A stretch of DNA of 9,332 nt, from NCBI GenBank assembly GCA_030636125.1, contig DAOVXM010000066.1:1-9332 (forward strand), given 5' to 3'. Made by a program: the position numbers and the translations under genes. Source of the stretch: Chloroflexota bacterium. Lineage in GTDB: Bacteria > Chloroflexota > Anaerolineae > Anaerolineales > UBA4823. Positions 1-9,186 of the stretch are shown piece after piece (the stretch's first letter is position 1; every line of letters starts with the position of its first letter). A model generated the notes under the pieces. That model had not been told where the DNA came from, made no database searches, and worked only from the letters and a program-made list of their open reading frames with translations.

Positions 1-213
1 ACTGCTAACATGCGCCTGAACGGCAAAATTCACGACGCATCCGTGGCAGGCATCACCCAGCTGCTCACCGGTCAGATGATGGAAAACCTGCCTTTGGCCT
101 GGAAGCTCTTCGTGCGGGGTCGGGTTAAACCCCCACCTCTCCCTCTGGGCGGCGGAAGGTTCCGCAAAATTTACAGAAACGCCCTCGAAAGGGAGGCTAA
201 TGCCAGGATTTGA
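1..213 (+). CDS. hdrC: Heterodisulfide reductase-like subunit C, C-terminal part (5' truncated)
   Basis: This is the last 70 codons of a gene entering from the left edge, in frame from base 1 to the TGA at 211-213. The first ATG, at base 10, is probably internal. HdrC carries two [4Fe-4S] clusters that pass electrons from HdrA to HdrB, but those cluster motifs would lie upstream and cannot be seen. What remains is a helical tail with MMENLPLAWKLFVRGRV followed by a proline-rich stretch and a basic end. It resembles HdrC C-termini, where a leucine-rich helix leads to a KRGR-like segment and prolines. The call rests on this tail plus the position just ahead of hdrB. A C-terminal domain of another ferredoxin-like subunit is the alternative. 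The gap of 61 bases to hdrB shows no clear terminator. Confidence 0.7.
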   Translation, partial: TANMRLNGKIHDASVAGITQLLTGQMMENLPLAWKLFVRGRVKPPPLPLGGGRFRKIYRNALEREANARI

Positions 214-274: not shown

Positions 275-1186
275 ATGAAATACGGTTACTATCCTGGATG
301 TTCCCTCGAAGGCATCAGCGTGGAATATAACCACTCAATGCGCAGCCTGTTCAATGCATTAGATGTGACCGTTGAGGACTTACCAGAATGGATCTGCTGT
401 GGCACTCTCGCCGCTCCTTCGATCTCACGTTTGCTAGGGGTGGCCACCCCATTGTGGAACGTAGCCAGAGCCAAACAGGAAGGGTATGAACAATTGATCG
501 CACCCTGCAGCGCATGTGTTTATCACTTTAAGAACGCTGAGAAGCAGGTGGACAAAGACATCGAGCTGCGCGAAGATGTCGAAGCAGTATTGGAATTACC
601 CCTCTCTGACCTGCCACGTACCGTCCATCCTCTTGAAATCCTGATCAAGGACGGTTTTGAAGAACGGATCAAATCCACTATTATCCGGGATATGTCAGAT
701 TTAAAAGTAGTGTGCTACTACGGCTGTCATATTTCACGCCCAGCTGATGTAATGCAGTTTGATGACCCTGAAGACCCACAAAGCATGGACCTTTTGCTCA
801 ACTGGGCAGGGGTGGAGACGTTGGATTGGTCAAGTAAAGTCGATTGCTGTGGGGCACATTTCAGCCTGATCAGACCTGATATCGTCGTGGATCTGTGCGC
901 CAAACTCGTCGATGCAGCCCTTGAAGCTGGTGCAGATGCGATCGTTGTCGCCTGCCCTATGTGTCATGCCAACCTCGATACCCGCCAGGAGGAGATTGCC
1001 GGCAGGTTGGGACATCCAATCAAACTCCCGGTCCTGTACTTCTCACAAGTGCTGGGGTATGCCTTAGGTTTGGAGCCTAATGTTCTGGGACTGAAGAAAC
1101 ACATCGTTGACCCGCTTCCGTTGATGCTGGAGAAATGCCAGGCGCGGGGCGCAGGATTTGCTCACCTCCCGGAGGTGACAGCATGA
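275..1186 (+). CDS. hdrB: Heterodisulfide reductase-like subunit B, both CCG motifs intact
   Basis: HdrB is the catalytic subunit of heterodisulfide reductase; two noncubane [4Fe-4S] clusters reduce a disulfide. The 303-residue length is normal for the family. Two complete CCG cysteine motifs are visible. The first is C9, C41-C42, C78 and C81; the second is C151 (with an extra C147), C191-C192, C227 and C230. This spacing closely matches the methanogen enzyme as I remember it. No signal peptide or membrane segment is present, so the protein is cytoplasmic. The ATG at 275 has a modest GAAAGG at 261-266, and the family N-terminus MKYGYYPGC begins there. Its stop overlaps the hdrA start (ATGA), so the two are probably translationally coupled. 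The natural disulfide is unknown: bacteria generally lack the CoM-S-S-CoB of methanogens. Related CCG proteins such as lactate-oxidase or GlpC-type subunits are less likely given the neighbours. Confidence 0.93.
   Translation: MKYGYYPGCSLEGISVEYNHSMRSLFNALDVTVEDLPEWICCGTLAAPSISRLLGVATPLWNVARAKQEGYEQLIAPCSACVYHFKNAEKQVDKDIELREDVEAVLELPLSDLPRTVHPLEILIKDGFEERIKSTIIRDMSDLKVVCYYGCHISRPADVMQFDDPEDPQSMDLLLNWAGVETLDWSSKVDCCGAHFSLIRPDIVVDLCAKLVDAALEAGADAIVVACPMCHANLDTRQEEIAGRLGHPIKLPVLYFSQVLGYALGLEPNVLGLKKHIVDPLPLMLEKCQARGAGFAHLPEVTA
1162..1178 (+). promoter_or_regulatory. Hairpin sequestering the hdrA ribosome binding site
   Basis: TCACCTCC at 1162-1169 and GGAGGTGA at 1171-1178 are perfect reverse complements separated by one base. 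A foldable form has a 7-bp stem (1162-1168 with 1172-1178) and a CCG triloop. The right arm is the hdrA Shine-Dalgarno, 4 bases before the ATG at 1183. The left arm equals the anti-Shine-Dalgarno core of bacterial 16S rRNA. Both arms are codons at the end of hdrB, so a ribosome finishing hdrB would open the hairpin. This fits translational coupling; the folding itself is an inference. Confidence 0.55.
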
Positions 1187-4100
1187 TCATTCCTAAAGGC
1201 GCCATCCCCACATTGGCCTCTAAAAATGGCCAGCCAGTCGGTGCGGTGATGGTTGTGGGGGGTGGCATCGCAGGGATGCAGGCTAGCCTGGACCTGGCGG
1301 ATGCCGGCTTTAAAGTGTATCTGGTAGAAAAAGAACCTGCCATCGGGGGTCACATGGCGGCCCTTGATAAAACCTTCCCAACCAATGACTGTGCCATGTG
1401 CACCATAAGTCCCCGGTTAGTATCCACTGCCGGTCACAATAATATTGAGGTATTAACCGATACAGAACTAATCGGGCTAGATGGGGAGGCTGGAAATTTC
1501 ACAGCCAATGTCCGCCGTAATGCGCGCTACATCGATGTAGAGAAATGCACGGCATGTGGTGATTGTGCGGCGGTATGTCCGATAACCCTGGTTGATAATT
1601 TCAATGGCGGACTTAGTCAACGCAAGGCGGCCTATAAACTATATCCTCAAGCCGTCCCCAACGCATACGCCATTGAGAAGAAAGGCATCGCTCCTTGCCG
1701 GGATGCATGCCCGGCAGGACAACGCGCTCAGGGCTATATCGCTCTAATTCGAGAAGGGCGCTACGAAGACGCACTCCGAGTCATCAAAGAGGACAATCCC
1801 TTCCCGGGGATATGCGGCCGGATTTGTAATCATCGCTGTGAAACGGCTTGTAACCGCAACCTGGTTGATGAGCCAATCTCCATCGCCGCGCTAAAACGGT
1901 TCGTGACCGACCAGGTGTACGCCACACCTTACGAACCACCTCAGCCTGCCAAACGAAAATATGATCAACGTGTAGCTGTTATCGGTTCAGGACCTTGTGG
2001 GCTGACAGCTGCCAAAGATCTGGTGCAGGCTGGATATGGTGTGACCGTTTTTGAGGCGCTTCCCGTGGCTGGTGGGATGCTGCGGGTGGGGGTTCCAGAA
2101 TACCGTTTGCCAACCTCGATCGTGAACCGAGAAGTACAAGAGATCATTGACCTGGGGGTTGAACTTCGCTTGAACACGCGCATCGAGAATCTAGATGACC
2201 TCTTTGCGGAGGGTTTCGACTCCGTGCTAATTGCAGTTGGTGCTCACAATGGCAGACGCCTCCCTATTCCAGGTTCAAATCACCCGGAAGTATCCACTGC
2301 AATACATTTTCTACGGGATGTGTGCCTGGGGAAAGGACCGGATATTCGAGGTCGCCACGTGCTGGTGCTCGGTGGAGGAAATGTGGCTCTGGACAGCGCC
2401 CGCACTGCCGTCCGTTTGGGAGCCAAGCAGGTAGACGTCGCCTGTCTGGAGGCTCGCCATGCGATGCTGGCCGACGAACATGAAATTATTGAAGCAGAAG
2501 AAGAAGGCATCCGACTCTTCCCTGAACGAGCCTTCAACCAGATCGTCAACAATAATGGCCACATCACTGGTGTTGAGGCAGTGGATGTGAAATTCATGCA
2601 ATTCGAGGCGGATGGATCACTGACTCTAGAGACGGAACCAAACAGCGAGCACCTCCTGGCGGGAGACATGGTGTTCTTTGCCATTGGACAATCGGCTGGT
2701 TTAGCCGTCATCCCCGAAGATCGCCAGGTTGGCACCACCCGGGGAGGGAATGTAGCAGTCAATCCAAACACATTCTCTACCAGCCATCCAGGGGTATTCG
2801 CAGCGGGCGATGCCACTACTGGAACCGCATTTGTAATCGAGGCTGTAGCTGCAGGTCACCAAGCTGCTGAGAGCATTCTGAAGTATCTACAAGGTGAGGA
2901 GCTTGAAGTTCGTGATCAACCACTGCTGCCGGTGGTCAAAATGAGCCCGACAGAAGTGTCGCTGCGTGTCGCCAGAGGTGAAATTGAACCGGAACCTCGC
3001 CTCCGTATGAGCGCGCTGGAGAGCACTCAGCGCCGTCAAACGTTTGATGAGGTCAACCTGGGCTACACTGAAGAACAGGCACGCGCGGAAGCTGCCCGCT
3101 GCCTGCAGTGTGGAGTTTGCTCGGAGTGCCTTTCATGTTACTACAATTGCGCCGCGGGAGCGATCAATCACGATCAGGTGGCAAGCCTTCAAAATCTCGA
3201 CGTGGGGGCTGTCATCCTGGCCAGCGGTTTTGAGCCCTATGACGCCCACCCGAATGGTGAATATGGCTTGGGTCGCTTTCCTAACGTGGTCACCAGCATG
3301 CAATTTGAACGCGTGCTGTCACCCACCGGTCCCTATAGCGGTCATTTAGTCCGCCCATCGGATGGGCACGAACCTAAACGTATCGCCTGGATCCAATGTG
3401 TCGGCTCTCGAGAGGTTGAGCGTAACTGGTGCTCAGCGGTGTGCTGCATGTATGCCACCAAGCAAGCGATCATCACCCAAGAACATGCACCGGGAACAGA
3501 GTGCACGATTTTCTTCATCGATTTCCGAGCCTATGGCAAGGGATTCGACGCATACTATGAGCGGGCCAAAGAAGAGGGTGTCCGGTATGTCAGGGCGCTG
3601 CCTTCCACGATTAAAGAAAATCCCAATAACGAAGGACTCGAAGTTCACTATGTCCTACCCGACGGAAGCCAGGCTCTAGAAGAATTCGATCTGGTGGTCC
3701 TCTCTGTCGGAATGCAGCCTCCGAATGGCATGACCCAGCTTGCGGGTGATTTAGGTGTTGAACTAACAAGCGATGGTTTCTGCCAGACAACCAACTTATC
3801 TCCCCTGGACACGACTCGCAGTGGAGTGTACGTCTGCGGTCCATTTGCGGAACCAAAGGATATCCCTGAGACAGTGATGTCTGCCAGCGCTGCCGCGGCA
3901 AGAGCGATGACCCTGCTGGCCGAGGCTCGCCATACTCTTGTTCAACCCAAAGAATACCCACCAGAAATCGACGTCTCGGATCAAGCTCCCCGTGTGGGTG
4001 TCTTCGTTTGCCATTGTGGAACGAACATCGCCGGTGTAGTGGATGTGGAAGCCGTCACCGAATATGCTCGTTCTCTCCCCGATGTAGTTTTTGCTGATAA

Positions 4101-5682
4101 CAATCTTTTCACCTGTTCAACCGATTCCCAGACTCGCATCCAGCAGGCAATCAAAGAACAAAACCTCAACCGGGTGGTGGTGGCTTCCTGTACTCCTCGC
4201 ACGCACGAACCGATTTTCCAGGATACCATTCGCCAGGTTGGCCTGAATTTCTATTTATTCGAATTGGCCAATATCCGCGACCAATGTTCCTGGGTACACC
4301 GCGACTTCCCCGAGGAAGCCACTGAGAAAGCTAAAGATTTGGTACGTATGGCGGTAGCTAAAGTTCGGCTGGTAGAACCCTTGCAAAGGAAATGGTTGGA
4401 ATTCAACCACGACGCCCTGATCATCGGCGGCGGATTGGCAGGGATGACCGCCGCGCTCGAGCTGGCTGACCAGGGGTTCAAGATTTCGCTGGTTGAGCGC
4501 CAGGCAGAACTGGGTGGAAATATGCGCCACCTGCATTTCTTACTCAGCCATGCCGACCCCCAGGCGTTATTGGCTGAACTGATCAAGAAAACAATCAATC
4601 ACCCCAACATTTCTACTTTCCTTAATACAGAGGTTGACTCATTCGAGGGCAGTCTGGGTAAGTTCAACAGCACACTCAAGATCGCGCACGGTGAAAATAC
4701 TCCCATCATCCATCACGGTGTGGTGATCGTCGCCACAGGTGCCCAACCCTACCAGCCATCAGAACATCTTTATGGGCAGGATGAGCGTGTTCTCACCCAA
4801 CTGGACTTCGAAGATATTCTCGCCAGGGGATCAACAGAAATCTCTAACCTGAAATCAGTTGTCATGATCCAATGTGTAGGCTCACGCACAAAGGAGCGCC
4901 CTTACTGCAGCCGTATTTGTTGTGGACAGGCCGTGAAGAACGCTTTGCAGATCAAAAAGATCAACCCGGATTGCGAGGTGTATATCCTTTATCAGGATAT
5001 CCGCACCTATGGCCTTTTGGAGAAATATTACCGGCAGGCGCGTCAAGAGGGAGTGATGTTTCTGCGCTTCGAGCCAGAACAACCTCCACAGGTAAAGGCA
5101 GATGGTACCCTGCAGGTGATCATCCATGACGCCATGCTTGAGACGGATATCCTCCTCGAGGCAGATCGCGTGGTTCTATCAGTGGCCACCATCCCCCGGG
5201 AGGATGCCAGTCAACTCGCCCAACTGCTCAAAGTACCACAAATGCAGGATGGCTTTTTCCAAGAAGCGCACATGAAGCTGGCACCGATAGACTTCGCCTC
5301 GGAAGGAATCTTCTTGTGCGGCATGGCGCACTACCCTAAGAAGGCTGTAACAGAGACCGTGATCCAGGCCAAAGCAGCGGCAGGGCGGGCAGGGACGATC
5401 CTCGCCCGGCGGAATCTTGAGATAGAACCGATCACCTCCCATGTACTGGATGACAAATGCGATGGCTGTGCCTATTGTGTTGACCCTTGTCCCTTTGACG
5501 CGATCACGTTGATCGAATACACGAATGAATCTGGCCAGACGAAGAAACGGGTAGTTGTCGATGAGACGATATGCAAGGGCTGCGGCACCTGCCAGGCTAC
5601 CTGTCCCAAGGATGCAATATACGTCTCACACTTTAAGCTGGATTATTTACGAGCTATGACTATGGCCGCCTTGGAGGTGTAA
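1183..5682 (+). CDS. hdrA: Giant HdrA: HdrA unit 1 with nested GltD domain, fused to HdrA unit 2
   Basis: HdrA is the flavin subunit that bifurcates or confurcates electrons between hydrogenase, HdrBC and ferredoxin. This protein has 1499 residues, about twice the usual length. Order of parts: FAD Rossmann motif GGGIAG at 26-31; TFPTNDCAMC at 64-73; [4Fe-4S] ferredoxin cysteines C122, C125, C128 and C132; a GltD-like insert at about 170-639; a six-cysteine cluster C640 to C656; the rest of unit 1 with IQCVGSR and C750, C754-C755. Unit 2 has the HdrA N-terminal domain (C943, C945, C978, C1003), a second FAD motif GGGLAG at 1082-1087, IQCVGSR at 1229-1235, and two C-terminal [4Fe-4S] ferredoxins (C1426-C1436, C1464-C1474). 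The ATG at 1183 is chosen for its GGAGGTG and ATGA overlap; an upstream in-frame ATG at 1135 adds residues unlike the family. No frameshift is seen. HdrL or FAD-dependent oxidoreductase would be equally fair names. Confidence 0.92.
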   Translation: MIIPKGAIPTLASKNGQPVGAVMVVGGGIAGMQASLDLADAGFKVYLVEKEPAIGGHMAALDKTFPTNDCAMCTISPRLVSTAGHNNIEVLTDTELIGLDGEAGNFTANVRRNARYIDVEKCTACGDCAAVCPITLVDNFNGGLSQRKAAYKLYPQAVPNAYAIEKKGIAPCRDACPAGQRAQGYIALIREGRYEDALRVIKEDNPFPGICGRICNHRCETACNRNLVDEPISIAALKRFVTDQVYATPYEPPQPAKRKYDQRVAVIGSGPCGLTAAKDLVQAGYGVTVFEALPVAGGMLRVGVPEYRLPTSIVNREVQEIIDLGVELRLNTRIENLDDLFAEGFDSVLIAVGAHNGRRLPIPGSNHPEVSTAIHFLRDVCLGKGPDIRGRHVLVLGGGNVALDSARTAVRLGAKQVDVACLEARHAMLADEHEIIEAEEEGIRLFPERAFNQIVNNNGHITGVEAVDVKFMQFEADGSLTLETEPNSEHLLAGDMVFFAIGQSAGLAVIPEDRQVGTTRGGNVAVNPNTFSTSHPGVFAAGDATTGTAFVIEAVAAGHQAAESILKYLQGEELEVRDQPLLPVVKMSPTEVSLRVARGEIEPEPRLRMSALESTQRRQTFDEVNLGYTEEQARAEAARCLQCGVCSECLSCYYNCAAGAINHDQVASLQNLDVGAVILASGFEPYDAHPNGEYGLGRFPNVVTSMQFERVLSPTGPYSGHLVRPSDGHEPKRIAWIQCVGSREVERNWCSAVCCMYATKQAIITQEHAPGTECTIFFIDFRAYGKGFDAYYERAKEEGVRYVRALPSTIKENPNNEGLEVHYVLPDGSQALEEFDLVVLSVGMQPPNGMTQLAGDLGVELTSDGFCQTTNLSPLDTTRSGVYVCGPFAEPKDIPETVMSASAAAARAMTLLAEARHTLVQPKEYPPEIDVSDQAPRVGVFVCHCGTNIAGVVDVEAVTEYARSLPDVVFADNNLFTCSTDSQTRIQQAIKEQNLNRVVVASCTPRTHEPIFQDTIRQVGLNFYLFELANIRDQCSWVHRDFPEEATEKAKDLVRMAVAKVRLVEPLQRKWLEFNHDALIIGGGLAGMTAALELADQGFKISLVERQAELGGNMRHLHFLLSHADPQALLAELIKKTINHPNISTFLNTEVDSFEGSLGKFNSTLKIAHGENTPIIHHGVVIVATGAQPYQPSEHLYGQDERVLTQLDFEDILARGSTEISNLKSVVMIQCVGSRTKERPYCSRICCGQAVKNALQIKKINPDCEVYILYQDIRTYGLLEKYYRQARQEGVMFLRFEPEQPPQVKADGTLQVIIHDAMLETDILLEADRVVLSVATIPREDASQLAQLLKVPQMQDGFFQEAHMKLAPIDFASEGIFLCGMAHYPKKAVTETVIQAKAAAGRAGTILARRNLEIEPITSHVLDDKCDGCAYCVDPCPFDAITLIEYTNESGQTKKRVVVDETICKGCGTCQATCPKDAIYVSHFKLDYLRAMTMAALEV
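1690..3099 (+). other. GltD-like NAD(P)H oxidoreductase domain nested within HdrA unit 1
   Basis: Residues about 170-639 of the HdrA fusion have the layout of the glutamate synthase small subunit and NfnB. An N-terminal cluster-binding part holds C172 and C176 (PCRDACPAG), then C211, C215, C219 and C223 (ICGRICNHRCETAC). An FAD motif GSGPCG follows at 268-273, with GGMLRVGVPEYRLP after it. The dinucleotide motif GGGNVALDSAR is at 397-407, and GVFAAGD marks the closing FAD site. In NADPH-using relatives a YRR triplet after the second Rossmann strand contacts the 2'-phosphate; here the aligned residues 421-423 are CLE, which points to NAD(H). The domain likely gives the complex a pyridine-nucleotide port. 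Boundaries are approximate. Confidence 0.88.
3991..5679 (+). other. Second HdrA unit within the fusion
   Basis: Residues 937-1499 repeat the HdrA plan. They start with the family N-terminal domain (RVGVFVCHCGTNIAG, then CTPRTHEP and NIRDQCSWVH), go on to an FAD-binding thioredoxin-reductase-like domain, and end in a double ferredoxin. The unit lacks the TFPTNDCxxC segment and the inserted ferredoxin that unit 1 has; after ELGGNM the chain runs into an unrelated helix (HLHFLLSHADPQ). The double ferredoxin is the probable exit to soluble ferredoxin, or the contact to MvhD encoded directly downstream. Which flavin bifurcates cannot be told from sequence alone. Confidence 0.88.
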
Positions 5683-5687
5683 TTTTG
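5673..5687 (+). promoter_or_regulatory. Ribosome binding site fixing a TTG start for mvhD
   Basis: GGAGGT at 5673-5678 lies inside the last hdrA codons and is followed after 6 bases by TTG at 5685. The nearby ATG at 5689 is in another frame, and the first in-frame ATG falls in the middle of the conserved domain (residue 45), so TTG is the only workable start nearby. Two bases separate the hdrA stop from this start. Confidence 0.75.
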
Positions 5688-6092
5688 AATGATTATGAAC
5701 CCTTGATCATCGCTTATACATGCTACTGGTGCTCCTATACCGCGGCTGACCTGGCAGGAACGTCTCGCATCCAGTATCCCCCCAATATTAGGATCATCCG
5801 CGTTCAATGCAGCGGCATGGTTCATCCCAACCTGGTGATTGATGCACTCACCAATGGCGCGGATGGCGTTCTGATGTGCGGCTGCCATCTAGGGGATTGT
5901 CATTATCGCGAAGGGAATTTGCGTGCCCAATCGCGTGCCGATGCTCTCGACTTGATGCTAGAAGATTTCGACCTTGAACCGGAACGCTACCGTCTTGAGT
6001 GGGTAGCAGCTTCAGAAGGCCCACAATTTGCCAAAGTTGTGACAGATATGGTTGAAGATTTGCGTGAGATAGGACCGAGTGTCTACAAATGA
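5685..6092 (+). CDS. mvhD: MvhD/HdrD-family [2Fe-2S] electron-transfer subunit
   Basis: MvhD connects the hydrogenase pair MvhAG to HdrA and carries one [2Fe-2S] cluster. The 135-residue length is usual. The characteristic cysteines are C13 and C16 (CYWCSYTAADLAG), C42 (VQCSGMV), C65 and C67 (MCGCHLGDC) and C72, followed by HYREGN. The C-terminal block LEWVAASEGPQFAK with EIGPS also fits the family. It starts with TTG at 5685, two bases after hdrA, and sits between hdrA and the hydrogenase genes as expected for a physical bridge. It is a separate gene here, whereas some lineages fuse it to HdrA. The protein is soluble and cytoplasmic. Confidence 0.93.
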   Translation: MNDYEPLIIAYTCYWCSYTAADLAGTSRIQYPPNIRIIRVQCSGMVHPNLVIDALTNGADGVLMCGCHLGDCHYREGNLRAQSRADALDLMLEDFDLEPERYRLEWVAASEGPQFAKVVTDMVEDLREIGPSVYK

Positions 6093-6159: not shown

Positions 6160-6225
6160 TTGGAAAGATTATTTTTTTTCGGGCAATGTCTAGAAATAGA
6201 TAAGACTAATAAGGAGGTTGACTGA
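6160..6225 (+). CDS. Possible 21-residue leader peptide before mvhG
   Basis: The mvhD-mvhG spacer (6093-6224) contains a short frame starting at TTG 6160, with AAGGAGG at 6148-6154 five bases upstream. It encodes MERLFFFGQCLEIDKTNKEVD, and its TGA (6223-6225) shares one base with the mvhG ATG (TGATG). A good Shine-Dalgarno and a stop-start overlap suggest a translated leader coupled to mvhG. The frame stays open upstream to a stop at 6109, so a decayed gene fragment is also possible. I recognise no family. Eight consecutive T at 6172-6179 make it AT-rich compared with its neighbours. Chance remains a fair explanation. Confidence 0.25.
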   Translation: MERLFFFGQCLEIDKTNKEVD

Positions 6226-6227
6226 TG
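6211..6227 (+). promoter_or_regulatory. Strong ribosome binding site of mvhG
   Basis: AAGGAGG at 6211-6217 stands 7 bases before the ATG at 6225. The same heptamer occurs 63 bases upstream at 6148-6154. The site fixes the mvhG start and suggests independent high translation of the hydrogenase subunits after the 132-base spacer. Confidence 0.8.
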
Positions 6228-7151
6228 GCTGTAAAAGTCGCACAAGAGTGGTTTGCCATTTGCGGTGGCTGTGAAGTCACCGTGCTTGACGTTGGCGAAC
6301 CGTTGATCGACCTGCTGCCTGAGCTAGAATTCGTACACATGCCAGTGATCATGGATCACAAAATATACGGTCAGACAGGGGAGGAAAGCAAGGCGGATAT
6401 CCCCGAGGCGGATGTAGGTATCATCACCGGCAGCATCCGAAATGAAGAAAACAAAGAGCTTGCTGAGTTGATGCGCTCTCGAGTAAATTTTCTGATATCC
6501 ATGGGCTCATGCGCCTGCTATGGAGGTGTACCCGCGCTGGCCAACCAGTTCGCGGTGGATGAGATCTACCAGCGGGTGTTCCAAGGAAATTCGACAACCG
6601 AACCCGGAGAGACACCCACAGAAGGTTTACCAGCCTTGCTAGACCGTGTTTACGCAGTGCACGAGATCGTGGATATAGACCTAAATCTGCCAGGCTGCCC
6701 TACAACACCGGATATGTTTGTAGCTGCGATAATGCACCTGCTGAAAGGTACACCCTTTGCGCTGGAGACGAAAAGCGTATGCGATCAATGTCCAACTATC
6801 CGCGAGCAAAAGGCGGGAGCGGGCATCACCCTCAAGCGTCCGCTTGAGTCAGTGGAGGGAGTTGGAGAGTCACTGGAAAAAGTACGCTGCTTCATGGAGC
6901 AGGGTTATCTCTGCCAGGGGCCAGCCACACGTGCTGGGTGCGGTGGTATGGATGGAGGCACTCCCCGCTGCATCAGGGCATATATGCCCTGCCGAGGTTG
7001 CTTCGGTCCTCTCACCGATCAGGCCAACCCCATGGTAGATATGATGGGTGCTATCTCGACCATTGGCCTCAACCCCCGGGAGATCCCCGACCGGGCAGCT
7101 CAATTTAACCGGTTTGCAGGTTCCGGGCGCTTACGAACGAAGAGGAGGTAA
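6225..7151 (+). CDS. mvhG: Group 3c [NiFe] hydrogenase small subunit
   Basis: The small subunit of the MvhADG hydrogenase conducts electrons from the Ni-Fe site through iron-sulfur clusters to MvhD. Proximal-cluster ligands are visible: C13 and C16 (CGGCE), C96 in GSCACYGG, and C158 in LPGCPTTPD. The C-terminal half has further cysteines for two more clusters: C186 and C189 (CDQC), C222, C230, C239, C249, and C256 and C259 (CRGC). At 308 residues it is normal for the group. There is no twin-arginine signal peptide and no membrane helix, so the enzyme is cytoplasmic, unlike uptake hydrogenases. The ATG at 6225 follows a strong AAGGAGG. The next gene starts 2 bases after its stop, so mvhG and mvhA are translated together. 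The F420-reducing FrhG is the nearest alternative, but no FrhB is present. Confidence 0.94.
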   Translation: MAVKVAQEWFAICGGCEVTVLDVGEPLIDLLPELEFVHMPVIMDHKIYGQTGEESKADIPEADVGIITGSIRNEENKELAELMRSRVNFLISMGSCACYGGVPALANQFAVDEIYQRVFQGNSTTEPGETPTEGLPALLDRVYAVHEIVDIDLNLPGCPTTPDMFVAAIMHLLKGTPFALETKSVCDQCPTIREQKAGAGITLKRPLESVEGVGESLEKVRCFMEQGYLCQGPATRAGCGGMDGGTPRCIRAYMPCRGCFGPLTDQANPMVDMMGAISTIGLNPREIPDRAAQFNRFAGSGRLRTKRR

Positions 7152-7153
7152 AA

Positions 7154-8593
7154 ATGGGAAAAACACTGGTCATACAACCTGTCAGCCGCATTGAGGGCCA
7201 CGCGAAGATCACCATTCAACTTGATGATGCTGGCAACGTGTCCGACACCATGGTGAACGTCATCGAGCTGCGGGGTTTTGAACGCTTTTGCGTCGGCAAA
7301 CCGGTCGAGGAGATGCCGCGCATTACAACCCGCATCTGCGGTGTGTGCCCCTGGTCGCACCACCTGGCATCTGCCAAAGCCACTGATGCAGTCTTTGGCG
7401 TAGAGCTGCCACCAGCCGGCGAAAAACTTCGTCGGTTGTGCAACAGTATCGCTTATATGGAAGAACACATCCTCCACTTCTATGTACTGGCTGGTCCCGA
7501 TTTCGTCCTGGGACCTGATGCAGAATACCCGGTGCGCAACGTGATCGGCATCCTGAATGCCGTTCCTGATGTGGGCAGAAGGGTGGTTAAAGTTCGCCAT
7601 ATGTGTGCCAAGATGCTGGAGATGGTCGCCGGAAAAGCTATCCATCCGGCTGCTGCCGTACCAGGCGGCTTCAGTCGACCCCTTCCAGAGGAAGAACGCC
7701 AAACTCTGTTGCCAATGGCAGAAGAAGCACTGGAATTAGCCAAGTTCACAATGGCTTTTGCCAAGGAAAATATCTTCCCCAAGTATTTGGATGTGGTTAA
7801 AACCGTCGGTACGATCACCAGCGGATTCTTGGGCACAGTCACCGACGATGGCGCCTTTGAGCTTTACGATGGCAAACTGCGTATGATGTATTCGGACGGC
7901 TCATTCGAGGAGTTCGGCTACGATGAGTACGCCGACTTCATTGGCGAGCATGTTGAGCCGTGGACTTACCTCAAGTTCCCTTATGCCAAGAAGCGCGGCC
8001 CCTTCGCATTGGAAGACGACGCCCCCAGCCTCTACAGGGTGAACTCCCTGGCGCGCATCAATGTGGCAGACTACATGCCGACGCCGCTGGCTCAGAAAGA
8101 ACTCGAAGAGTTCCGCGCCAGCTTTGGTCGTCCAGCGCAGCTGACCTTGCTCTACCACTGGGCTCGCTTAATCGAGCTGCTCTATAACGCCGAAATTGTA
8201 GTGCAGTTGCTCAACGATCCAGAGATCACCAGCCGCGATATTCGCGCCTCGGTGACACCACGGGCAGCACGTGGAGTGGGTGTGGTTGAAGCCCCAAGGG
8301 GTACATTAATCCATGACTACACGACCGACGAAGATGGATTGCTCACCCACGTTAACCTGCTCGTTGCAACCTGCCAGAACAATTCAGCCATCAACCTGTC
8401 AGTGAAACAGGCTGCTCAAACTCTGATCAAGAATGGAGAGTACGATCAGGGAACACTCAATACTGTCGAAATGGCAATTCGCGCTTACGATCCATGCCTG
8501 TCCTGCGCCACCCATCGAATGGATGGCACCATCCCAGTCAAAGTGGAGATCCTCGCACCGAATGGTGAAGTGATCGACACCCTCACCAACTGA
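7154..8593 (+). CDS. mvhA: Group 3c [NiFe] hydrogenase large subunit, precursor form
   Basis: The large subunit holds the Ni-Fe(CN)2CO centre that splits or forms H2. All four nickel-ligand cysteines are present: C62 and C65 in RICGVCPWSHH, and C448 and C451 in DPCLSCATH. RIEGH at 12-16 includes the conserved E14, and EAPRG at 379-383 supplies the arginine near the cyanide ligands. After H454 there is a 25-residue tail (RMDG to the C-terminus), typical of the extension that a maturation protease removes once nickel is in place; such a protease is encoded next. The length of 479 is usual for MvhA/FrhA. The start is supported by AGGAGG at 7143-7148, which overlaps the end of mvhG. A strong hairpin follows its stop. 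The gene looks intact and fully functional. Confidence 0.95.
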   Translation: MGKTLVIQPVSRIEGHAKITIQLDDAGNVSDTMVNVIELRGFERFCVGKPVEEMPRITTRICGVCPWSHHLASAKATDAVFGVELPPAGEKLRRLCNSIAYMEEHILHFYVLAGPDFVLGPDAEYPVRNVIGILNAVPDVGRRVVKVRHMCAKMLEMVAGKAIHPAAAVPGGFSRPLPEEERQTLLPMAEEALELAKFTMAFAKENIFPKYLDVVKTVGTITSGFLGTVTDDGAFELYDGKLRMMYSDGSFEEFGYDEYADFIGEHVEPWTYLKFPYAKKRGPFALEDDAPSLYRVNSLARINVADYMPTPLAQKELEEFRASFGRPAQLTLLYHWARLIELLYNAEIVVQLLNDPEITSRDIRASVTPRAARGVGVVEAPRGTLIHDYTTDEDGLLTHVNLLVATCQNNSAINLSVKQAAQTLIKNGEYDQGTLNTVEMAIRAYDPCLSCATHRMDGTIPVKVEILAPNGEVIDTLTN

Positions 8594-8648: not shown

Positions 8649-8661
8649 GGATTTGAGGTAT

Positions 8662-9186
8662 ATGGATACTGAGCAAACCTTAGACTTTAATCTCTTGCCA
8701 GCTTTTTGCCAAGCCCGAGTGCTTGTCTTGGGAGTTGGCAATGTCCTTTTTGGAGACGATGGTTTTGGTCCGGTAGTTGTCGAGTCCCTCTTACAGGATT
8801 ACGATATCCCTGATGATGTGTATGTGATGGATGTAGGCACTGGTGTTCGCAAGCTGCTTTTTACATTGATCTTGGGAGATACCCTTCCTGAAGAAATCGT
8901 GATCGTTGATGCTGTAGATTGGGGATATTCCATCGGCGACGTGCAGGAGATCTCTGCAGACGAGCTGCCGGTGACCAAGATCGACGATTTTTCACTACAC
9001 CAGGTACCAACTTCAAACATGCTGCGCGAATTGCAAGACCACAGTCAAGTCAAGGTCTCCGTTATAGTTTGCGATATAGGGAACCTGCCCCAGAAGATTG
9101 ATCCGGGATTGTCACCCAAGATCCGACAAGCAGTGCAAAGTGCGGCTGAGAAGATCGCCACACGGTTTTCGCTAGAACCTTTATAA
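8662..9186 (+). CDS. [NiFe] hydrogenase maturation endopeptidase (HycI/HyaD/FrcD family)
   Basis: This nickel-dependent protease cleaves the C-terminal tail of the hydrogenase large subunit, here MvhA after its DPCLSCATH motif. The start of the fold is visible as LGVGNVLFGDDGFGP at residues 23-37. The three nickel-site residues can be placed by comparison with HybD/HycI: D33 (in GDDG), D83 (in VIVDAVD) and H113 (in LHQVP). The length of 174 residues is usual. I prefer ATG 8662. An in-frame TTG at 8653 would add three residues, but the AGGA at 8648-8651 is too close to it; the same AGGA is 10 bases from the ATG, with GAGG at 8655-8658 as another weak site. Expression is probably lower than for the subunits because of the hairpin upstream. 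The exact family symbol (hyaD, hycI, frcD) cannot be settled. Confidence 0.9.
   Translation: MDTEQTLDFNLLPAFCQARVLVLGVGNVLFGDDGFGPVVVESLLQDYDIPDDVYVMDVGTGVRKLLFTLILGDTLPEEIVIVDAVDWGYSIGDVQEISADELPVTKIDDFSLHQVPTSNMLRELQDHSQVKVSVIVCDIGNLPQKIDPGLSPKIRQAVQSAAEKIATRFSLEPL

Follow-up and report, generated by a model that had tools for sequence, protein, structure and literature searches.

A hydrogenase-linked tandem HdrA with a nested GltD module from an uncultured Chloroflexota bacterium, a putative chimera with a proposed role of NAD(H) in place of ferredoxin

In the HdrABC-MvhAGD complexes of methanogens, HdrA is described as a dimer of single units without GltD, with ferredoxin as the presumed acceptor (PMC9012536). 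According to the same source, one electron branch leaves the known HdrA proteins through HdrC/HdrB and the other through the inserted ferredoxin, the presumed way to ferredoxin, and the N-terminal cluster borrows one cysteine (Cys197) from the other protomer. The Moorella HdrA, which in Moorella thermoacetica belongs to a MetVF-HdrABC-MvhD system, is presented as a fusion of two HdrAs in which the losses of Cys197 and of the N-terminal domain complement each other (PMC9012536). Here we describe a tandem HdrA encoded on a stretch of 9,332 nucleotides from a Chloroflexota bacterium (contig DAOVXM010000066.1; the whole stretch is called the window). The window shares HdrB, MvhD, MvhG, MvhA and the HdrA domains with the methanogen system; in contrast to the M. 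thermoacetica protein, its HdrA is linked to hydrogenase subunits instead of MetV/MetF, and its C-terminal half belongs to another lineage. Our reading, to which we assign a probability of roughly 55%, is that the locus encodes an HdrCBA-MvhDGA complex with a pseudo-dimeric HdrA, that nicotinamide adenine dinucleotide (NAD(H)) takes the place of ferredoxin, and that hdrA arose by recombination.

As outlined in PMC9430772, the M. thermoacetica HdrA has the same order of parts as the window protein, a GltD-interrupted flavin adenine dinucleotide (FAD) domain followed by an FAD domain without inserted ferredoxin, and also the glutamate/lysine (E/K) pairs in both FAD domains. The Moorella stamsii homologue (L050; L numbers denote loci of relatives, G numbers relative genomes, and P0072 one relative protein) is 48% identical to the window HdrA in the best segment. 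An open reading frame (ORF) at L050:16501-17490, considered as MetF, is matched by neither Pfam nor NCBIfam; MetF is thus an unlikely identity, and nothing can be read from its matches to other loci. The HdrL proteins of Desulfobacterium autotrophicum are related fusions, set apart by their description, in which two of three are selenoproteins and HdrL3 has a predicted fumarate reductase domain. The type III HdrA and HdrA9-11 of ANME-1 resemble the window protein in carrying GltD or an NfnB-like part inside the inserted ferredoxin, and the Bathyarchaeota cluster likewise has mvhADG (PMC12054007, PMC9012536). However, these proteins are archaeal and, by their description, closest to a type I HdrA with GltD added, whereas the window protein consists of two fused HdrA units. 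Finally, the StnC/NfnC-type subunits (8oh5, 9bov) share the GltD module and the C-terminally placed RCLxC motif, but have YRR where the window has LEAR; StnC is reported to be fused to NuoG-like domains and to bind NADPH (PMC10482914).

The tandem GltD-HdrA layout and the presence of mvhADG beside a GltD-HdrA (in Bathyarchaeota) are therefore already described. The initial annotation correctly took HdrL-type proteins as known but underestimated how widespread the layout is, and novelty does not lie simply in the combination with a group 3c hydrogenase, because the pairing with mvhADG occurs in several bacterial phyla and, according to PMC12054007, in Bathyarchaeota. New here are a single hydrogenase-linked clade, the finding that its GltDs do not form one group, apparently chimeric HdrAs, and NuoE/NuoF in the same linker. 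We met no description of the bacterial hydrogenase-linked tandem form, of a chimeric origin or of the NuoEF alternative in the literature searched, which was covered in part.

The hdrA frame (1183-5682, plus strand) reads through 1499 codons without an internal stop, and the three FAD-type Rossmann sites, the GltD/Fer4_20 part and several [4Fe-4S] motifs expected from the initial annotation are all present. Two HdrA units and a complete GltD are found as well, but not in the linear order HdrA-GltD-HdrA. The solved HdrA aligns to residues 38-182 and again from about residue 660, with GltD (about 185-588) in between (1515-residue numbering), so that GltD is nested in the inserted-ferredoxin domain of the first unit. 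The predicted structure of residues 1-930 of the 1499, with folds ranked by Foldseek, shows the same nesting. Both results reject GltD as a module between two whole HdrAs. The parts of the protein are as follows.

1183..5682, plus strand: tandem HdrA with nested GltD, 1499 residues
1225..1680, plus strand: unit 1, first half of the thioredoxin-reductase-like FAD domain and first inserted-ferredoxin [4Fe-4S] motif (residues 15-166; Cys 122, 125, 128, 132), by HdrA alignment; metV-type affinity
1399..1401, plus strand: Cys73, counterpart of methanogen HdrA Cys197, counted along the HdrA alignment
1681..3117, plus strand: GltD/StnC-type module for FAD and NAD(P)H, lying within the inserted ferredoxin (residues 167-645); NCBIfam PRK12771 (NF009410), 529.5 bits, cut-off 516
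2371..2457, plus strand: dinucleotide-binding motif GGGNVA...LEAR (residues 397-425); Glu423 ends the second strand
3118..3957, plus strand: unit 1, second half, with the second inserted-ferredoxin [4Fe-4S] motif and the rest of the FAD domain (residues 646-925; E709, K760, Cys 739/750/754/755)
3250..3432, plus strand: putative crossover zone (about residues 690-750), in which metV-type sequence would give way to Mvh-type; from identity profile, trees and topology tests
3979..4398, plus strand: HdrA N-terminal domain between the two units (residues 933-1072; Cys 943, 945, 978, 1003)
4405..5442, plus strand: unit 2 FAD domain without inserted ferredoxin (E1210, K1252, Cys 1231/1242/1246/1247)
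5443..5679, plus strand: C-terminal ferredoxin, two [4Fe-4S] motifs

A thioredoxin-reductase-like FAD domain alignable to the solved HdrA is thus present, but the N-terminal domain, inserted ferredoxin and C-terminal ferredoxin do not occur together in one unit. As these parts are split over two units, the protein is a tandem HdrA and not a canonical one. The N-terminal domain and the C-terminal ferredoxin are missing from unit 1, and the inserted ferredoxin from unit 2; because of this complementary loss, one chain mimics an HdrA dimer. The arrangement is of the Moorella type, with GltD in unit 1, no inserted ferredoxin in unit 2, and complementary loss of the Cys197 counterpart and the N-terminal domain. 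In the 66-row alignment, Cys73 is kept in 61 rows (the other five have gaps), the four N-terminal-domain cysteines in all 66, and residues 1110-1149 of unit 2 are cysteine-free in 63. The markers of bifurcating flavins are also conserved: E709 and K760 occur in 66/66 rows, E1210 in 60 and K1252 in 58, and the window HdrA has all four. The nested module has the GltD/NfnB fold, with an FAD and NAD(P) Rossmann pair and Fer4_20. Two residues are candidate counterparts of the NfnB arginine that is hydrogen-bonded to FAD N5, R308 (43/43 GltD rows) and R301 (28/43); StnC is reported to keep its corresponding arginine without bifurcating (PMC10482914).

An acidic residue at the end of the second strand of the dinucleotide-binding motif is usually associated with NAD(H), and an arginine pair with NADP(H). 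Downstream of GGGNVA, the window has CLEAR and M. stamsii CLESR, where NfnB (5jca) and StnC (8oh5) have YRR. The LEAR motif therefore suggests NADH as the likely partner of the window GltD, and the M. thermoacetica HdrA does oxidise NADH (PMC9430772). By gene context, there are four LE and three RR among Mvh-linked GltDs, 14 LE, seven RR and one other among metV-linked ones, and three LE and 11 RR among the rest, with one LE doubtful (L045, sequence YRGSLE). In the A2 set of 42 rows, which includes the window, 41 have LE and one has IE.

The history of the protein was addressed by trees from quick searches, built on 66 rows selected by us from 214 ORFs, with repeats of the same genes included. 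The label metV-type is based on a MetV query alone (PF12225, methylene-tetrahydrofolate reductase C terminal). When the GltD columns are left out, all 16 hydrogenase-linked tandem HdrAs group in a single clade (Shimodaira-Hasegawa-like approximate likelihood ratio support 100). Seven of them have GltD (the window, L170, L171, L172, L180, L181 and L198), and nine do not (L173-L178, L197, L200 and L109); L180 and L181 repeat the genes of L005 and L019. Over the whole 66-row tree, presence or absence of GltD changes at least 13 times. In the GltD tree (65 rows, with standalone GltD rows that do not root it), the seven Mvh-linked GltDs are scattered, with five changes that are all forced by starred branches, and forcing them into one group is rejected by the approximately unbiased (AU) test (p-AU 0.0008). 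By these trees, the hydrogenase-linked HdrAs appear to have acquired GltD from separate GltD lineages. Such uptake is hard to square with the idea of GltD as a structural relic without part in electron transfer, comparable to the FdhF-like part of StnC, and so is the invariance of the FAD/NAD motif glycines and cysteines in a 42-row alignment; StnC does retain clusters outside its electron path (PMC10482914), but we regard a relic as very improbable here.

The window, L170 and L171 combine two phylogenetic signals. In the GltD tree they lie inside metV-type proteins, mostly of Chloroflexota (sets of 10 and 12 rows, support 99 and 100), and in the tree of residues 15-166 they also group with metV-type proteins. 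In the tree of residues 721-1499, however, they belong to the Mvh clade (support 100). In each of the three, sliding identity passes from the metV-type to the Mvh-type at about residues 690-750. Joining the trio to seven metV-type rows is rejected for the C-terminal part (AU test, p 7e-10), and joining all seven Mvh-linked rows with GltD is rejected for the N-terminal and GltD part (p 1.3e-4). Of 120 listed proteins, a count that includes the window protein and some fragments, 62 have the same mixed profile by 4 points or more in each part, 40 are undecided in the C-terminal part and 18 are metV-type throughout. The genome with L001 also carries a metV-type copy, L056. The window HdrA and its close relatives thus look like chimeras, in which residues 1 to about 690, including the NADH module, would derive from a metV-linked lineage by recombination and the rest from the hydrogenase-linked type. 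The window MvhD is 64-79% identical to Mvh-type and 32-45% to metV-type proteins, and HdrB leans to the Mvh-type; the replaced part therefore seems confined to the 5' half of hdrA.

The pattern could in principle have arisen without recombination, by loss of GltD in other hydrogenase-linked lineages together with uneven rates. GltD is absent from the nine rows mentioned, and conservation does differ between the two halves of the protein. Nevertheless, residues 15-166, which are present in most rows with or without GltD, side with the metV-type, the signal switches at one place in all three members of the trio, and both one-history arrangements are rejected by the AU tests. We consider an origin without recombination improbable.

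GltD is not the only insertion found in this linker. In G729 (L239, L200), G185 (L178) and G466 (L241), a split divides unit 1 of hdrA behind its first ferredoxin motif; the piece before the split continues into a NuoE-like domain and is followed by a NuoF-like gene (in G729, with further small genes after it), and the second piece starts with a [2Fe-2S] Fer2_4 domain, after which HdrA resumes. G538 (L197, at a contig edge) has a NuoF tail together with a second piece bearing Fer2_4. Fer2_4 is likewise found in the second piece of G519 (L240), where the ORF before it fuses NuoF to GltD. L178, L197 and L200 are hydrogenase-linked. A YPQAVP-like stretch is found in the second piece in L141, L197 and L200, and before GltD in the window. 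By sequence, the NuoEF cassette and GltD appear to sit in the same linker, at different residues. The fused ORF in L240 (1-3168, open at the slice start) lies directly upstream of a GltD-less tandem HdrA, which is followed by MvhD.

A broader proposal, which we put forward tentatively and hold to be somewhat less probable than its opposite, is that the inserted-ferredoxin linker of HdrA acts as a plug-in port. Hydrogenase-linked tandem HdrAs would have repeatedly and independently taken up NADH- or NADPH-type GltD, or gene-splitting NuoE/NuoF, turning a ferredoxin outlet into an NAD(P)H outlet for bifurcation from H2 to NAD(P)+ and a disulfide, and the window would be a chimera with an NADH module from a paralogue linked to methylene-tetrahydrofolate reductase. 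If so, nature would have performed a swap experiment several times, on a hydrogenase-HdrA chassis with no module, NADH-type GltD, NADPH-type GltD or NuoEF. It would become directly testable which carrier uses the ferredoxin port of HdrA, and whether HdrA-family bifurcation with NAD(P)+ as one acceptor exists. A route for low-pressure H2 use in uncultured Chloroflexota would be predicted, and the blanket annotation of MvhADG/HdrABC loci as ferredoxin-reducing would be unsafe.

The neighbouring genes are all on the plus strand, in the order hdrC (3' fragment), hdrB, hdrA, mvhD, mvhG, mvhA and maturation protease.

1..213, plus strand: hdrC 3' fragment, 70 codons at the window edge; 71% identical to the C-terminal part of an HdrC-like ORF in L001
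275..1186, plus strand: HdrB, 303 residues, two CCG cysteine modules (Pfam CCG PF02754, two stretches)
5685..6092, plus strand: MvhD (Pfam FlpD PF02662)
6225..7151, plus strand: MvhG, hydrogenase small subunit (Pfam and NCBIfam profile searches)
7154..8593, plus strand: MvhA, group 3c [NiFe] hydrogenase large subunit (motifs ICGVCPWSH and AYDPCLSCATH)
8653..9186, plus strand: hydrogenase maturation protease, HycI/FrhD-type (Pfam HycI; TIGR00072 above cut-off)

The run with HdrBC and MvhADG named in the initial annotation is present except for HdrC, which is represented by the fragment alone; a Pfam search of this fragment gave no match. HdrB scores 144.6 bits against the NCBIfam HdrB model, under the cut-off of 345.15. 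The gaps are -4 (hdrB/hdrA), 2 (hdrA/mvhD), 132 (mvhD/mvhG), 2 (mvhG/mvhA) and 59 nucleotides (mvhA/protease), and the hdrCBA-mvhDGA run would be expected to give one transcript and one protein complex. The ATG at 1183, which overlaps the hdrB stop, has GGAGGTGA just 5' of it; an alternative in-frame ATG at 1135 would lengthen HdrA by 16 residues. The group 3c signature comprises the L1 motif ICGxCxxxH and the L2 motif AYDPCxxCATH (PMC6085437), and the window has an MvhA with both, as well as MvhG and MvhD. No MetV or MetF was found among the identified genes of the window, which stops after the protease gene.

As in the initial annotation, motifs thus point to a link to H2 (group 3c MvhADG), a link to pyridine nucleotides (complete GltD fold with conserved motifs) and an HdrB of the thiol/disulfide type (two CCG modules). 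In our reading, unit 2 would provide the N-terminal domain as the route to HdrC/HdrB and the C-terminal ferredoxin as the route from MvhD, and unit 1 the inserted ferredoxin with GltD nested in it. Electrons from H2 would pass through MvhA, MvhG and MvhD and the C-terminal ferredoxin to the HdrA flavin(s). One branch would then run through the cluster of the N-terminal domain, which Cys73 of unit 1 would complete, to HdrC/HdrB and a disulfide, and the other through the inserted-ferredoxin clusters to the clusters and FAD of GltD and on to NAD+. With the second outlet joined to GltD, NAD(H) would take the place of ferredoxin, and at low H2 the reduction of NAD+ could be driven by the exergonic branch to the disulfide; electrons may also be able to flow in the opposite direction. 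We estimate an H2 potential of about -270 mV at about 1 Pa H2, above that of NAD+/NADH, and coupling to a disulfide would therefore help. DsrC was found above cut-off in five of seven genomes with a hydrogenase-linked GltD-HdrA (G036, G005, G178, G002 and G003) and in none of seven with GltD-less versions (profile search; the 14 genomes are incomplete and related), which makes it a lead, and only that, for the disulfide partner. CdhC is present in nine of the 14.

A role for ferredoxin, the remaining link in the initial annotation, is not supported, because the sole known ferredoxin port is the site that GltD occupies. It is argued in PMC12054007 that GltD could block ferredoxin at this domain, and no separate ferredoxin gene was found among the window genes identified by profile search. 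This makes a four-way switch, in which H2, NAD(P)H, ferredoxin and a disulfide would meet in one complex and ferredoxin would dock at a still-free site, an unlikely alternative, even though the inserted-ferredoxin cysteines are kept and the two E/K-marked, bifurcation-competent flavin sites would in principle allow two splitting events. We are similarly doubtful about a two-input reductase without bifurcation, in which H2 (through MvhD) and NADH (through GltD) would be alternative donors to HdrB. Many metV-linked relatives have MvhD and GltD with no hydrogenase subunits downstream, the M. thermoacetica HdrA takes electrons from NADH, and co-reduction of NAD(P)+ or ferredoxin was not seen in the S. 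ovata experiments of PMC9430772, with an HdrA without GltD. Against it stand the conserved E/K markers at both HdrA sites of the window, and the nine GltD-less Mvh-linked rows, which retain three or more of the four cysteines in the second motif of the inserted ferredoxin.

Several points weigh against a bifurcating, NAD(H)-linked complex of recombinant origin. The evidence is wholly computational and the source uncultured, and the trees come from quick searches on author-chosen rows. The N-terminal tree that places the trio with the metV-type is short (152 columns, support 94, unstarred), and the group for the C-terminal AU test was chosen in knowledge of the tree. The metV-type locus L003 has one copy of MvhD that shares 58% identity with that of the window, within the gap between the groups, and the window HdrB is barely nearer to the Mvh-type (39-46%, plus a 32% partial match in L172) than to the metV-type (35-39%). 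The metV-linked GltDs are not uniformly LE (n=22). By the rule given in PMC12054007, in which GxGxxA denotes NADP, the window GltD (GGGNVA) would be NADP-type; this alanine is found in every GltD row displayed, of LE and RR type alike, and the GxGxxA/GxGxxG rule fails to separate the compared rows, so that the LE/RR position was used instead. Finally, coupling of both flavins is assumed, and H2 reduces NAD+ unaided at standard potentials, so that bifurcation is not required.

The initial annotation had proposed an architecture search and had named an assembly join of separate genes as a possible refutation. Such a join is very unlikely, because the matches listed for HdrA include at least 119 protein clusters besides that of the window protein, mostly of about 1500 residues and one on a 4.5-Mb contig. 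A genome scan gave at least 579 relatives, which rules out uniqueness of the architecture. Among the 80 loci kept, 71 single ORFs of at least 1300 residues contain GltD. Where at least 5.5 kb lies downstream (45 ORFs), mvhG/mvhA follows in three, metV in 23 and neither in 19; where less is available (26 ORFs), metV follows in 13 and neither in 13. At least 79 of 400 Chloroflexota genomes match HdrA at E 1e-100, many partially, a lower bound because the scoring took only two candidates from each genome. Within the class of a Syntrophaceae genome, P0072 is matched at 1e-200 in 112 of 155 genomes (three candidates scored per genome). In 82 of the 155, a single match begins no later than residue 57 and ends no earlier than residue 1489, and the remaining matches are partial or lack GltD; the architecture is therefore ordinary in that class, and frequent elsewhere. 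Some P0072 matches (in G803, G930, G904, G913 and others) contain an in-frame TGA, possibly for selenocysteine or merely read-through at the end.

G005 probably carries the same operon as the window, divided between two contigs: L055 has hdrB with the GltD half, and L179 the remainder with mvhA. In other Chloroflexota, HdrA-GltD and the second HdrA are separate adjoining genes beside mvhDGA (L183, L184), or a single HdrA with GltD accompanies mvhDGA (L185, L187). In L003, L201, L204 and L078, also from Chloroflexota, the tandem HdrA with GltD, next to metV, is preceded by another tandem HdrA that lacks GltD and has an MvhD of its own. L182, a 14-kb slice of a 1.5-Mb Chloroflexota contig, has matches to MvhG, MvhA and the protease without matches to MvhD or HdrA. 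In the Bathyarchaeota locus L076, the match extends along most of the query, and the locus has two adjoining HdrA-like ORFs.

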